Assembly: GCA_029834535.1 (NCBI GenBank)
Contig: JAQMWT010000162.1
Span: forward strand, 1-64,000
Source of the DNA: Chrysophaeum taylorii
Taxonomy: Eukaryota > Sar > Pelagophyceae > Pelagomonadales > Pelagomonadaceae
Direction of reading: 5' to 3'
DNA: 64,000 nucleotides
The position numbers and the translations under genes were made by a program. The notes beneath the pieces are model-generated. The model saw nothing but the letters and a program-made list of their open reading frames with translations, made no database searches and was not told the DNA's origin. How positions within the stretch are numbered: the first letter of the stretch is position 1; the number at the start of each line of letters is the position of its first letter. Below, piece after piece: positions 57,955 through 64,000 of this stretch.

Positions 57955-59700
57955 CGCTAGAGAACCCGAGTTGAATTCAATGAGCTGCGACCCGGTCGGT
58001 GCCACCCCAGCGCAACTCAATGGTCGCACATCAGCAATAGGGTCGAAAAGGAATTCACTAAACCCTACCCGTGAATGTGAACCACGTCACCGCGCAAGTT
58101 CGGTGAAAATGATTGTGAATGATGAACACGGTAATTGCGCCTTACGTGGCGATCGTGAGCCACCTTTATTTAATAGTTTTTTTTTTTATTTATTTTTTTG
58201 TGGCGCCCGCGCAAATGTCCCTGTCAGTCCGTGCACCCGGGGCTCGAAGGCTCAAACGTGTTTTGGGGCGAAGGAGGAATCAACGGCAGTGGAAGCCATT
58301 ACGCCTTTCTTGCCGTAAGTGACGTGAGCGATCTCGATATCTTCGTCTCGTTCTTCCTTATCAACTTCCATCTCCGAAGAGTCTTCGGGGATGTTCCTTC
58401 CGGCGTTTCTTAATTCGCCCTCGACGAGATCGCTGTACTTGATCCGGGTCGCCGCCATGACTTCCTTGTTCATGCGCAGTAGGGCAACTTTGTCCGTCTC
58501 GCCCGCGCCGAGCCAAGAATGCCATCAGGACAGAGTGGTTTTACTGGCTGGGCACGGCCCGGACGTAGCTAGTAACCAGCGATTTCTCCTTCGAGGCTGC
58601 CACAACGCCCACGACCGTCATTACGCCCTCCCTTTCTTCGTCTGTCTTCTGTTTCTTGGTGAGCTGTTGACGGCCCAGCTCGACCCCCGGATGCGCAGTC
58701 TAAAAGTGGGCAAGGGGCTTGGTCGTCATTACACTGGTAGGGTCGGATAAGAAAACGAGACTAGCCCGCGCCGCAACGACGGGTCCTACAACGCGTGGGC
58801 TTTTTCCTTTTTTTGCGTGAGGGGACGAAAGGATGCCGACTTCACTATGGGGACTAGTTCCATCGCGACGATCTCGCGGCGTGGCGGCACATACTGCTTG
58901 AGTACAAATGAACATAGCTCAGCGATCCGTTGAGTATGTCTTAGTACAAACTGAAACATAGTTAACGGCTCGTACGAACTTTCTTATCCGACCCTGATTA
59001 CAGCCCGGCTGCAGAGAAATCTGCTGCCTCTTACCCTTATCCGTCCGTTGAGAACGTGATCTCTTCCTTACCCTTCTTCTTCCTTTTCTACACAATCAAA
59101 TAGTCCTCTGGTTTGTGCCTACGCTCATCATCATGGTCTAGCGCGTCCCGAGGTATGTAGCACTATACACTTTACCTTTCTCGTGTAGTTCTAGATGCCG
59201 CCTGTCGTGTTCTGAGGATATAGGGAACATACCTTTTCATTCCCCGAATTAAATACTTCCAGACGTTCATGATGAGACGGGATGGTTTCCCAGGTGACTT
59301 ACCACTGATTGCTAATGCTCTGCAGGTTATGGGCCCAGGCGGGTCCCTGAGAAACCATGTGTTAAAACGTGCACGTAACCTATGGGTATTGGGTCGTTAC
59401 CGCGCCGACTCAGCCTCGCCACGTAAACACACTTGTAAATACAACGCCATTACCATTGGGCTGTATATAATACTTTTTGCACACGTGATCGTGTAACCTT
59501 GTGTGCACCTGTTCATAGTATCGTATTGTCATGTCAATGTTGATGTGTGTGTAATTGGCTAACCTGTACTCTTGCACACATGTTATGGAATATTTTGGGT
59601 ACGTCCACTCGTACATTCCATGGCAATGCACTTAACAAGCTCCTTGAGAGCACCAAAACTAACCAGCTGCCTGAGTGACTACGCTTAGCGACACTACTCT
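57955..59700. other. Gene-poor interval before the retroelement
   Basis: No credible gene. It contains T-rich runs (58170-58200), the inverted-repeat element at 58739-58995 and, from about 59 kb, AT-richer sequence that may include the retroelement's LTR or leader. A TATA-like CTGTATATAATAC lies near 59461. Confidence 0.45.
58739..58995. mobile_element. Short element with 16-bp terminal inverted repeats (MITE-like)
   Basis: AGGGTCGGATAAGAAA at 58739-58754 is perfectly inverted as TTTCTTATCCGACCCT at 58980-58995, enclosing about 225 bp with no coding frame. No clear target-site duplication was found, so MITE status is provisional. Confidence 0.5.
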
Positions 59701-59844
59701 GGACTCACAGCTTGCACAGTCGTCAAATAGACATATTTCCATCGAAAACGATGAGTGTACATAGACACCGATAGACAGACCCCCTTAGAATGTCTAGACA
59801 GTGTCAACTGCGTGACTGAACCCACAGGTTCCCCGTCAACTGCT

Positions 59845-60939
59845 ATGGCAGAACACGCAGCACGAGCCGCACCCAAGGCGATCACAGGTGCGGATATATT
59901 GAAGCTCGAAGCTCCTGTAGTTGAGTTTCTTAACGATGGAAATCGATTTCAGCTTCAGACTCGCAAGGTATCCTTGCAAATCAAGCACATTAAGCAATTG
60001 TTACGGTCCAGTCATGCCGATGCTTTCCTCGAGTACGACTCGTACGAAGCATATACTCGGTCATGCAAGGACTACGAGATCCTCCGGAATCAAATTCTCG
60101 ATCGCGTTTTCCTGGAATGGAAGACCGATAGGGCTGCTGATCTCCGTTTAGCTGTTGATGAATTGCCCCCTGAGTATCAGGAATGGCATTTCACCAACGA
60201 AGCTTTCCCCCACTTACCTGATGCAGAAGTAGCTCAGCTAGCTACTGTCTGTTACGACTATGAAGTCAAGGCATTACGTCCTGAAATCAATGCCCGTTTC
60301 TTAGAAGAGGAACGAATCTTAAATCGCGCGCACCCGAAGGCACTAGCTTTCGACACCCGTGTTCGTGCCCCTGTTACCATGTTTTCGTTAACTGCTGCTG
60401 ACTGGCACACTTATCAGAACACGTATGCTACATTCTTGCATACTTACTTCAATCTTGAAAGTGTTGGAAAACCGGCACTTGCGGCCTGGCCCGCCATCAA
60501 TGAGGTATACAACAAAAGTTATTTACCCAACAAGGCTCGAGCTATTATGCTCATCGCCTTTAGTCACTACGAGTCTGTTACGACTACTGATGTGTCCTAT
60601 TTGAAACAGCAATTTAACTCTGTTGTTTATAATCCTAACTGGTATGTCCATGTATTTATCGAAGCTGTCCTAGCATTTAGGCAAATCTCTTACCAACTTA
60701 ACCAGGAAGAGACTGACCTTCAATTCGACTTTGGCACTCTTTGTAGAAAAATCTATGAAGAGATACATCGGCATTATGCCGATAATACCAGCAACAACCG
60801 TTACGATCGTGGTTGGGTAGATTGGTGTTATATGTACGAAACCCGATCTTCATCTCGGCCTGTGCCAGAAGCTGAACGATTGTGTCACCCTACCAACCCT
60901 AGCTACATTTTAGAATACGCATTAGACCTTACAATGTAG
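59845..60939 (+). CDS. Gag-like protein of an LTR-type retroelement
   Basis: About 364 residues from the first true ATG (59845). It is largely helical and charged, with no enzyme motif. Its position directly upstream of a retropepsin-like frame is the reason to call it gag. The sequence is much less GC-rich than the host genes. A zinc knuckle was not found. After the TAG at 60937-60939, coding character continues in the -1 frame (about 60903-61210, a Ser/Thr/Gln-rich stretch) before the protease frame, so the gag C-terminus is split by a frame change. It could be a recoding event, an indel in a decayed copy, or a sequence error; no good slippery heptamer was seen. Confidence 0.55.
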   Translation: MAEHAARAAPKAITGADILKLEAPVVEFLNDGNRFQLQTRKVSLQIKHIKQLLRSSHADAFLEYDSYEAYTRSCKDYEILRNQILDRVFLEWKTDRAADLRLAVDELPPEYQEWHFTNEAFPHLPDAEVAQLATVCYDYEVKALRPEINARFLEEERILNRAHPKALAFDTRVRAPVTMFSLTAADWHTYQNTYATFLHTYFNLESVGKPALAAWPAINEVYNKSYLPNKARAIMLIAFSHYESVTTTDVSYLKQQFNSVVYNPNWYVHVFIEAVLAFRQISYQLNQEETDLQFDFGTLCRKIYEEIHRHYADNTSNNRYDRGWVDWCYMYETRSSSRPVPEAERLCHPTNPSYILEYALDLTM

Positions 60940-61068
60940 TATCAAATGGGTCGAACAAAAGACGCTTAGAACGCCCTGTTTCTTGGCAACCCTATGTCGA
61001 AGGTTTATCATCTCAACCAAAGCCAAAGTTACTACTTACAAACACTTTGGACTCATCAGACAAAAGTC

Positions 61069-62619
61069 TGACTCAAACTGCTAACACACTCGCCTTCATC
61101 ACTTCGTCCCAACCTGGTACATCTTCCACGTTTAATGCTAGACGCTTGCGTAACTCTAATGATGCTCGCCAGCCTTTCTCTCGCAGCGATTTATCGTATT
61201 ATCGTTCCTGGTGATTCTTACGTCACCAAGAAAACTGCCGGACAGTCCCATGACCGTCCAATTTACCCCCGCACTTTTGACAGGTCCTCTCGGTCTAACA
61301 TGAAATTATTAGATCGAACAAACCACACCTTAAACACCCTGCGAGAACAGTGTAGTGAACTTACGAAGCATGTGACAGATAATGATACCACGGCTCAGCT
61401 ACAACAGAATATCAACAAGTTATTTGAGACTCTATTACAATCAGCTGACATTCTGTCAACGACATCTACTGAGGACAACAGTAGTTTACTTCGTCTAAAC
61501 GAACAGCTCATGTTTGCAGAAGACATCATTTATGATGTAGACGTTCATCTATCCTCGACCGAAAAGTCGTTAAACTACGTGGAGCCACAACACCATACTG
61601 TTGTTACTGCTCCCACCCCAAAGGCAACTCCTCCTACTACAAACACACAGGGTAATCCTTCCAATACTGTGCCTAACCTCTTTACCGCTTCCGCCATCTC
61701 GGCTTTACCACCAGCATTATTGTCCTCGCTATCTTCACAGGTCCAATCTGCCCTCAACACACCATCACAAGCCGAAACCAAAAGGGATGCCGATCATACT
61801 TCGCTATCGTCATTTGATGAAAAGCACGGCATGGCTGATGAGGCTGACGAACCATCACCACCTGTTCAACCGATTATTATTCCAACGAATCTGTTATTGC
61901 TGAAGAACTTCTTCACAGCCAGCCTCTCCACTACTTGCCCACATTCGGAAAACGCCTTCCTCACCAACTACATGAAGGTAAACAGTGTCCCTCCACATTG
62001 CTCTTTTCTATATTTTGACTCTTGTGCTACCATCTCATTGATGTCCACTTACGATTTTGCAATACCCAATCATATAATTCCATTGGACTCCAAATACGCG
62101 CCGATTGTTATTCAGACGGCTACAGGACAACAACGGGCATCACACATGATGTTAACACGTAACATTGTTGTTCCCCTACCAGATCATCCACAAGTTGGCT
62201 ATGTTAAGATCGACTTCGCTTTATGTCTTCAGCCAGTGCATGACCGACATCTCGCTATCCTGAGCATGCTCGAGTGGAACCAGACGAACCTGACCACTGT
62301 GTTCAATGATCGAGCTGAGCCAAAGCTCAGCGCTGTCACGAGCCGCATAGACAAAGATGTACGTATACCCATACACTATGTAGCAGCTAATTTACCTGCT
62401 CTCCCTTGTCTCACTTACAACATCGCGCGCGACAAGCAACTCGAACTTCGTTCTCTCGCATTTCCCCTCAAGCGATACCATGAAAACAGGGATCTACTGG
62501 CATACTACAACTACCTACTCCAAAGAGTTTTACCAGATCGCCCGTGGATTCGCCCTTTGGTTCTCAATCTTCGGAAACAGAACAAATTTGTTCAGCAAAA
62601 TACGCAGCCATTAACTTGA
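61069..62619 (+). CDS. Retropepsin-like aspartic protease region of the retroelement
   Basis: The open frame contains a Ser/Thr/Pro-rich N-terminal part and then an aspartic-protease-like core. YFDSCATISLM (near 62011-62043) corresponds to the D-[ST]-G-A catalytic motif with Gly replaced by Cys. A later hydrophobic segment resembles a flap and second beta layer (IVIQTATGQQRASHMM, VPLPDHPQVGYVKIDFALC). The nominal ATG at 61135 overlaps coding-like sequence of another frame, so the true beginning is unclear. The frame ends in a lone TGA (62617-62619), after which the same frame continues open into the methyltransferase-like region. Confidence 0.6.
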
Positions 62620-63225
62620 CTACTTTCACGCCCAGTGTTTCTCTCACAAGAGTCCAATCTCCGCAAACCCTCTGTCATGTTACTTTGTTCTGGTTTGTCA
62701 ACTCCGGCGTTCCTGTCTCAAGCCACTAATGACTTAGGCTTAAATATCAATGTAAAAGTTGTTGTTGAGTCTGATGATACGCTTGTTCGTATGTTACGCC
62801 ACCGTTTTCCTACTGTATTATTATTTGAATCTCTCCCCGCCTTTATTAACCACCTTCACCTAATCTCACCAGAGGAAAGGCGCACATTCTATTGTGATAT
62901 AATTGAGATCACTCCTCCCTGCACAAACAGGAATTTACTAAAACAGCATAAGACAGAAGACTTACACAGCCTGCTGGACGACTCTTTTCGGCAGCATGTT
63001 GTCTGTCATCAAGCTACTCCAGCCCATGGTACTACTGGCTGAGATGACGCCTCCGCATAAGTACTGTCATCAAGACCACATCACAGTGGCCAACCTTATC
63101 CATACTGCACTTGATTACTGTGCCGATGTTGTTGATAGGTTCCCGACCTACCTCTGTGGCGACTACCAATCTAGAGAAGATGGATATGCATCGCACGCAG
63201 ATATTCTACTGGACCAATTAAACTA
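62620..63225 (+). pseudogene. C5 cytosine methyltransferase-like domain within the retroelement, frame-broken
   Basis: Directly after the in-frame TGA the same frame gives VMLLCSGLSTPAF (motif I, family LFSGxGG, near 62674). It continues with VKVVVESDD (motif II acidic residue near 62767) followed by LRHRFP, and CDIIEITPPCTN (motif IV with the catalytic Pro-Cys near 62917-62922). After a frame change near 62995 the next frame gives KLLQPMVLLAEMTPP (motif VI, family ENV; here EMT, near 63041) and FPTYLCGDYQSRED (motif VIII QxR, near 63167). Order and spacing fit Dnmt/Dcm enzymes. Motif I lacks the second Gly and ENV is altered, so activity is doubtful. Such domains catalyse transfer of methyl from SAM to cytosine C5. 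Confidence 0.65.
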
Positions 63226-64000
63226 TTGTCGTGGCCCATCCTCCATATATCCCCGTTCCTAAAACGTTTGCACCTTACTCTCGCACAGGTTCTGCTCAGC
63301 TTACTATGGCTGACCTTGAATCCCTCAATATGTTACTGCTTCGCCTTCACTCACAACAGGCTCACGAACAACGTACTCACTCTGTTCAATCCGAGTGTAC
63401 TTATCATCAGTTGTGCTTTAAACGCTCCTCTATGGAGCCACTACCCAATGCAACACATCCTATACACGTCAAGGTTTTTACAATCCTCTATAACTTGTTT
63501 GCCAGCTTACACACTAACTCACCCACTCCTGTGTCCTATTACATAACCGTTTTCGAAACTAACCAACCGTCACACAGGTTATTACTTACAACCTCATCAA
63601 CATCACACAACTCCCACTTCTTAACTGGTGGCCACCATTCCGACGGCAACCTCACCATAGAGAACGCCACCACCAAACATCAAACTCCCATCAACGCCTT
63701 TGGAAGCACGTATACGTTCACTGCTTCCGACATCCCCCGCGACCGGGACAGGTCCATATATTTGGAGCCGTTTATGGGTTACTTGTGGATAGTCCAAGCC
63801 CTTCCCCAAGTTGGCTCCGCTGCCACCTATGGCACCGCCATACAAAAACTCTTGTCCAGATGCTCTCTTGTGATGCCTGGCTGCCTTACCTACAAGGCCA
63901 CCGACAACTCTTTCGATTACAAGGACTCTCATTTTGCTCTGGAAGATCACCACTTATCTCATAGTCGCTATATAGGGTACCTTCGTGGAAGTGACCGCAA
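63222..64000 (+). CDS. Continuation of the retroelement, unassigned open frame reaching the window end
   Basis: A third frame opens after a TAA near 63219 and stays open for about 780 nt to the end. It includes IPVPKTFAPYSRTGSAQLT (which could be a degenerate motif IX of the methyltransferase) and later FTASDIPRDRDRSIYLEPFMGYLW. I recognise no reverse transcriptase, RNase H or integrase motif in it; those would be expected further downstream. Confidence 0.45.

Follow-up and report, generated by a model that had tools for sequence, protein, structure and literature searches.

Does the string of C5-methyltransferase (C5-MTase) motifs found at this locus belong to a retrotransposon and, if so, what would an element of this type gain from it? 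The window, i.e., the whole stretch of DNA analysed here, corresponds to the first 64,000 bases of contig C162 (68,696 bases), from a 70.8-Mb genome comprising 697 contigs. From position 59010 to beyond 64000, the window contains the 5' portion of a Ty1/copia element whose parts are arranged in the following order: LTR, primer site, gag, protease, methyltransferase (MT), integrase, copia reverse transcriptase (RT), and RNase H-like frame (Table 1). Three families of related elements are distinguished below: B (the family of the window copy), A, and D.

Structure and class of the element

Table 1. Features of the element in the window (positions in the window; ~, approximate)
Feature	Position	Strand	Basis or remark
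5' LTR, 315 bp, TGCAGAG...CTCTGCA	59010..59324	+	start shared by other copies
Primer binding site (PBS)	59325..59338	+	sequence GGTTATGGGCCCAG directly behind LTR
gag-like frame, stop to stop	59755..60939	+	394-aa open frame
pol frame start, -1 relative to gag, overlapping gag	60903..61214	+	open frames
Protease-containing frame, D-S-C-A motif near 62017	61072..62619	+	equivalent frame in L030
TGA, in frame, between protease and MT	62617..62619	+	7/8 family B loci
MT motifs I-VIII, frame change at ~62985	62620..63178	+	motif reading, alignment to copies
Motif I-like, LLCSGLSTPAF	~62674-62712	+	window frame reading
Motif II-like, VVVESDD	~62758-62778	+	window frame reading
Motif IV, TPPC	~62911-62922	+	window frame reading
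Motif VI-like, AEMTPP; catalytic Glu retained, ENV Asn absent	~63038-63055	+	window frame reading
Motif VIII-like, YQSRE	~63164-63178	+	window frame reading
MT target-recognition stretch (TRD)	63175..64000	+	motifs IX-X beyond window, to ~64290 of contig

A DNA search with window 58900-60300, in which 40 main places were scored (the window copy among them), started at query 107-113 (window 59006-59012) in 36 of the 39 other copies. Furthermore, the 3' ends of L038, L039 and L040 carry the purine run CTCGAGGGGG followed by the sequence that starts at 59010; since this sequence recurs behind the purine run at the 3' ends of three copies, it is regarded as the LTR. The sequence directly behind it, GGTTATGGGCCCAG, is presumably complementary to the anticodon arm of the initiator-Met tRNA; half-tRNA priming is the mode used by many copia elements. 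The exact LTR-PBS junction is present at 251 places in the genome (backwards control, 0), and the tRNA-like pattern at nine (control, 0), the latter being candidates by pattern.

LTRs, primer site and purine tract are thus documented across copies, the 3' LTR of the window copy lying past the contig end: self-comparison of the contig end yielded no LTR pair, as the contig ends before the 3' LTR. From L038, we infer that this LTR lies ~1.3 kb past the contig end and that the whole element measures ~11.3 kb. Repeat pairs in L011 and L020 were also considered as LTRs and interpreted as fragments of adjacent repeats. To the left of the LTR, window 58801-58995 is 99% identical to pieces of the family A loci L011 and L021 and, in consequence, the element lies among nested repeats.

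The preliminary description had placed gag-like and retropepsin-like frames directly upstream of the motifs. Their position and the D-S-C-A motif stand, but the gag-like frame has no Pfam match and the protease-containing frame matched no relevant Pfam family. The gag/pol overlap (window 60903-60939) is likewise -1 and of equal length in the family A loci L024, L025 and L026, and where gag and pol overlap we recognised no canonical slippery heptamer. The extension downstream that had been proposed did recover the remaining parts of Pol: integrase-like, RT and RNase H-like frames continue on the same contig to ~68265 (contig end, 68696). The RT of the window element (L009) matches RVT_2 with E 9.8e-37, and those of L030 (E 7.7e-42) and L024 (E 1.6e-38) do so as well; integrase precedes RT in all three. 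Matches to rve (E 0.002-0.008) are below the Pfam cut-off, SH3_retrovirus being above its cut-off in family D only.

The methyltransferase domain and its genomic copies

All five motifs reported between 62620 and 63225 were located there in the order described, in strings that we take to be motifs I, II, IV, VI and VIII. The domain itself is larger than had been described: motifs I-VIII lie within that interval, but a TRD of ~280 aa and motifs IX and X continue to ~64290 of the contig. Compared with an unbroken copy, the window copy has frame shifts at ~62985 and ~63178 and lacks a short segment of roughly 25-40 codons near 63250. Its frames have no DNA_methylase match in Pfam at E<=1. Of three viral-contig MTases compared with the N-terminal window piece, two give z 4.4 and 4.5 (reached by 1/400 and 0/400 shuffles), and the third, like two family A copies, stays at z 0.7-1.5; the second window piece stays within shuffles in all comparisons (z -0.5 to 1.3). 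Hence, the window copy owes its MT identity to its relatives: unbroken copies align to family A, and family A matches PF00145.

The translation of 62620-63039 (140 residues) matches at least 150 places in the genome, the window included. Among the 150 matches listed, 138 contain no stop and six reach the last residue of the query; most stop around residue 124, the point at which the frame is lost in the window copy. Copies are 96-99% identical over the 5' end of the element. One of them, L030 (C42), is unbroken, with MT, integrase and RT in a single 1691-aa frame; its MT comprises motifs I, II, IV (TPPC), VI (AEMTPP) and VIII (QSRERW), a TRD of ~280 residues, and IX/X-like blocks. RVT_2 is found 2.5-6.5 kb downstream on the same strand for 49 of the 150 family B MT places listed, and upstream or on the opposite strand for none (0 and 0). 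Regarding family D, RVT_2 lies downstream in 23 of the 115 places listed (0 upstream, 2 on the opposite strand). Seen from the RT, a B or D MT lies upstream of 71 of the 149 RT places listed (controls 0, 0 and 2). These rates, obtained among the matches listed for MT and RT, are lower bounds. The MT-RT linkage and the single frame of L030 bear out the claim that the domain follows the protease in an element rather than sitting in a host gene; the genomic copies thereby supply both an intact state and the owner of the domain. That the MT domain is genuine and part of a copia element is almost certain.

A TGA separates the in-phase protease and MT frames in seven of the eight family B loci examined (the window included), and the eighth, L033, has an insertion at the TGA site. 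Most, not all, of the differences near the TGA are synonymous in the protease-MT frame, and in L034 and L036 the codon right after the TGA is ATG. In L024, from family A, protease runs into MT without a stop.

Over the full 140 residues, two other copies, C331:29867-30286 and C431:51426-51845, match the window at 99% and 98% identity and thus end out of frame as it does; a broken copy may have multiplied, by help in trans or by duplication.

Sister families and their relationship

In the genome, PF00145 matches 57 places: (i) a DNMT2-like gene; (ii) a DNMT5-like gene; and (iii) 55 others, the best 20 of which by score all carry the family A MT. Family A reaches 46.1 bits (cut-off 22), and L003 gives E 5.1e-12. 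In L024, a single 1952-aa frame contains DNA_methylase (32.1 bits, cut-off 22) together with RVT_2 and an rve match under its cut-off. It also matches the PADLOC type II MTase (E 6.2e-9), phrog_363 (E 1e-8), phrog_116 (E 1.2e-7) and, under the cut-off of 100.65, NCBIfam dcm (E 3.2e-8, 33.6 bits). Family B, L030 included, has no match to the MT models of Pfam, NCBIfam and PADLOC; against phrog_116 it gives E 0.058. The PF00145 check that had been suggested is therefore positive for family A but not for the window copy and its close copies. Family D (L041, L042), with at least 123 matched stretches in the genome (best candidates scored), has motif VIII, TRD, motifs IX-X and integrase in common with B, mostly at 41-49% identity to unbroken copies.

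Families B and A match continuously from motif IX into the integrase (23% over 541 aa, tblastn E 2.7e-17), and their RTs are ~36% identical (L030 versus L024). Over the whole MT, colinear global alignment of unbroken B and A copies gives z 8.0-8.5 in three pairs (0/400 shuffles each); by parts, z is 3.8 (2/400 shuffles) and 5.4 (0/400) for the catalytic block and 8.2 for motifs IX-X (BLASTP E 0.003), and the TRDs of A and B show no similarity (z -0.5). Family A against the D pieces gives z 1.6 and 2.5. Local HMM searches did not connect the families: the A profile gave E 1.1-2.8 against B and 0.17 against D (best shuffle 0.48), and the B profile 0.24-0.59 against A (best shuffle 1.1). With very shallow alignments, hhalign returned for A versus B a probability of 1.6% and E 0.032 over 208 columns. 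Since these local comparisons are weak, A-B homology is based on the colinear alignment, the BLASTP match of motifs IX-X, and the tblastn match from IX into integrase. A joint profile (A4) retrieved PDB 8yf3_A, a cytosine-specific methyltransferase, at E 1.1e-4 (A-only profile, E 0.2). The simplest reading would be that the MT was captured once, ahead of the split into families A, B and D. The integrase region L018:9017-9972, 65-74% identical to B, may represent a fourth copia family.

Conserved residues and selection

Pro-Cys and Glu-Asn are present in 20/20 family A loci, these being the best 20 of 55 by PF00145 score, a choice that biases toward conserved motifs; Cys and Glu are invariant in the six aligned family B copies (6/6). 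In the colinear alignment of three A and four B copies, motif IV Pro-Cys, VI Glu, VIII Arg and IX-X follow in order, and the catalytic Cys, the Glu, the motif VIII Arg and the motif X Asn-Ala are invariant across both families.

The MT core is under purifying selection (median dN/dS 0.10-0.12), although the copies compared were picked for long open frames, which biases toward low ratios. With seven B copies (21 pairs), medians were 0.10 for the MT core, 0.11 for IX-X, 0.27 for the TRD, 0.40 for the spacer and 0.24 for the integrase. The integrase frame is broken or short in L034 and L036, and L034, out of frame there, raised the integrase ratio. Without these two (five copies, 10 pairs), the values were 0.12, 0.13 and 0.29 for core, IX-X and TRD, and 0.18 (pooled, 0.15) for the integrase. 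The idea that the MT is kept more strictly than the integrase was consequently dropped (0.12 versus 0.18); the core is kept about as strictly as the integrase. In family A (six copies, 15 pairs each), dN/dS was 0.16 for the protease region, 0.12 for the MT core and 0.21 for the TRD, with 0.15 for IX-X (6 pairs) and 0.25 for spacer plus integrase (3 pairs). The one family D pair gave 0.18 for TRD-IX and 0.09 for motif X through integrase; hence, the MT is not the strictest part everywhere.

The host, its own methyltransferases and the origin of the domain

The gene beside the DNMT2-like gene (L001) matches chlorophyll a/b-binding protein (PF00504, E 1.2e-13) and, together with the DNMT5-like gene (L002), identifies the host as a photosynthetic eukaryote. 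The red-plastid alga of the preliminary description is consistent with this pair of genes. L002 matches chain 7r76_A with E 5.3e-132; the entry is labelled DNA repair protein Rad8, and we take the chain to be Cryptococcus DNMT5. No similarity was detected between the element MT and either host enzyme (z -0.3 to 0.5; against the DNMT2-like one, 0.0 for A and 0.5 for B).

The family A core is nearest to C5-MTases of IMG/VR viral contigs (seven loci, L043-L049), with 27-32% identity and z 18.7 against L043. Judging by sequence similarity, the nearest relatives found are phage-type C5-MTases, the comparison having covered host DNMT5/DNMT2 and viral sequences; a DNMT3 origin is a further possibility. 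PDB profile searches returned 8yf3, 3g7u and 4h0n (DNMT2) at E<=1 with A4, and 8yf3 alone at E<=10 with the A-only profile, with no DNMT3 chain among them; a single-sequence PDB search gave 0 matches. Scans of viral_contigs with family-specific alignments (67 and 200 stretches) and of genome_contigs with A4 (59 stretches) revealed no relative, plasmids gave no match, and phages gave two records of one virus (27.5%). The L016 + 168 frame (E 9e-5) was rejected as an MTase because no MT motifs were recognised on reading.

In four of the IMG/VR loci, a second open frame overlaps the C5-MTase gene (L043:6134-6652, L045:4514-5005, L048:6131-6637 and L049:2373-2846). Two of the four contain SLSAKACEGILRRA and the other two close variants of it, and the overlapping frames of L043 and L048 match phrog_16143 (DNA methyltransferase by description). 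This frame looks like a conserved overlapping gene.

Comparison with known systems

The published systems are considered here as described in the available parts of the sources cited. Earlier captures of MTs by retrotransposons of dinoflagellates and a charophyte, to which the preliminary description had alluded, are indeed on record: C5-MTases occur in Symbiodinium LINE and DIRS elements and in Klebsormidium Gypsy elements, and some of them carry out de novo CG methylation (PMC5890265). Like the element described here, SymbioDIRS-Dnmt3 and SymbioLINE-Dnmt have a C5-MTase in the coding region (within Pol in DIRS), occur in many copies, retain the catalytic residues and show purifying selection, but they are DIRS and LINE elements instead of copia, and the DIRS MT is a Dnmt3 (PMC5890265). 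KnitGypsy-Dnmt3, from Klebsormidium nitens, is also an LTR element with an MT in Pol under purifying selection; unlike here, it is a Gypsy element with a Dnmt3-related MT, fewer copies and a charophyte host (PMC5890265). Symbiodinium copia elements are described as lacking a DNMT domain (PMC5890265).

One sentence in the literature names 'LTR Copia and DIRS' with DNMT3 (PMC12344493). These 'LTR Copia' elements share with ours the class name and the presence of an MT, but theirs is DNMT3-type, their anatomy is not given in the portion available, and the source cited there calls the streptophyte element Gypsy (PMC12344493, PMC5890265). DNMT3 is reported as missing from most stramenopiles except diatoms, and seemingly from the haptophytes studied (PMC9998398). 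Within the present data, the viral-contig C5-MTases (L043-L049; phrog_116, phrog_363) are the nearest sequences but stand-alone phage-type genes; the host DNMT5 and DNMT2-like enzymes belong to the same superfamily and genome but have no detectable similarity to the element MT. In the literature searched, as far as its text was available, no copia element with the order protease-MT-integrase was found. The copia class, the position between protease and integrase, and the host of the captured C5-MTase all appear to be new.

Proposed function and alternative explanations

At the level of sequence, the element class, the position of the MT, its copy number, the conserved catalytic residues and the purifying selection are demonstrated. 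The best explanation, and probably the right one, is a Ty1/copia lineage whose Pol carries a C5-MTase between protease and integrase and which would methylate its own cDNA before integration. The MT would be synthesised within Gag-Pol, after readthrough of, or reinitiation past, the in-frame UGA in the case of family B, and packaged with RT and integrase. It would then methylate cytosines in the freshly synthesised double-stranded cDNA, ahead of its integration, so that this cDNA would resemble methylated host DNA and escape attack on foreign, unmethylated DNA, a benefit that would parallel that of the modification enzyme guarding phage DNA. The parts of this proposal are not equally firm: catalytic activity in live copies is likely; action on the element's own cDNA has about an even chance; and protection, rather than self-restraint, is a tentative reading of its purpose. 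Equally tentative is the wider scenario of a single capture, possibly of phage or bacterial type, by an old copia lineage before the A/B/D split. The enzyme, retained under strong selection, would modify the cDNA within the particle and so carry it past a host system directed against unmethylated incoming DNA and, in B, the conserved UGA would meter MT-integrase-RT. The diverged motifs I and VI of family B are a point against MT activity. Besides, in seven B copies, recent C-to-T changes amount to 0.049 per CpG site versus 0.045-0.056 in other contexts; as the rate is not raised at CpG, no CpG methylation footprint is seen.

The divergence of motifs I and VI in family B, together with two features of family A (Leu in place of the first PPC proline, and a motif VIII without Gln), would suit an MT without catalysis, retained in Pol to bind nucleic acid or in a structural role. 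This is rather unlikely given the residues invariant across A and B (Cys, Glu, motif VIII Arg, motif X Asn-Ala) and the stronger constraint on core and IX-X than on TRD and spacer in B, or than on TRD in A. Chance motifs, or an unrelated host pseudogene beside the element, would account for a window copy without an MT HMM match, but this explanation has a negligible probability and is refuted by the genomic copies: the domain occupies the same place in many of them, PF00145 matches the sister family, and purifying selection is observed.

Two further readings accept the enzyme but change its target or its benefit. The MT might methylate RNA in a DNMT2-like manner, be it the primer tRNA, packaged genomic RNA or other RNA. 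A TRD of ~280 aa is more typical of DNA-type MTases, which the element MT fits better in this respect, and its lack of similarity to the host DNMT2-like enzyme also speaks against an RNA target; an RNA-directed role is hence improbable, even though the element is apparently primed by a tRNA and RNA activity has been proposed, in the available text, for the dinoflagellate LINE MT (PMC5890265). Alternatively, the MT could silence each new insertion in advance, making the element tolerable to its host. Such self-restraint would agree with the presence of a host DNMT5 and with the increase in copia expression upon DNMT5a loss described for a diatom in the accessible part of PMC9998398, but 251 exact junctions and 5' ends 96-99% identical are not expected under strong restraint, and it is considered improbable too.

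Significance

This copia lineage would add one more case to the cytosine methyltransferases captured by retrotransposons, with a different element class and a different algal lineage, and the host has DNMT5 and DNMT2 among its own enzymes. Such repeated capture argues that carrying an MT pays. With hundreds of copies in a 70.8-Mb genome, these elements would offer a natural system in which to study methylation as a shield versus a brake.
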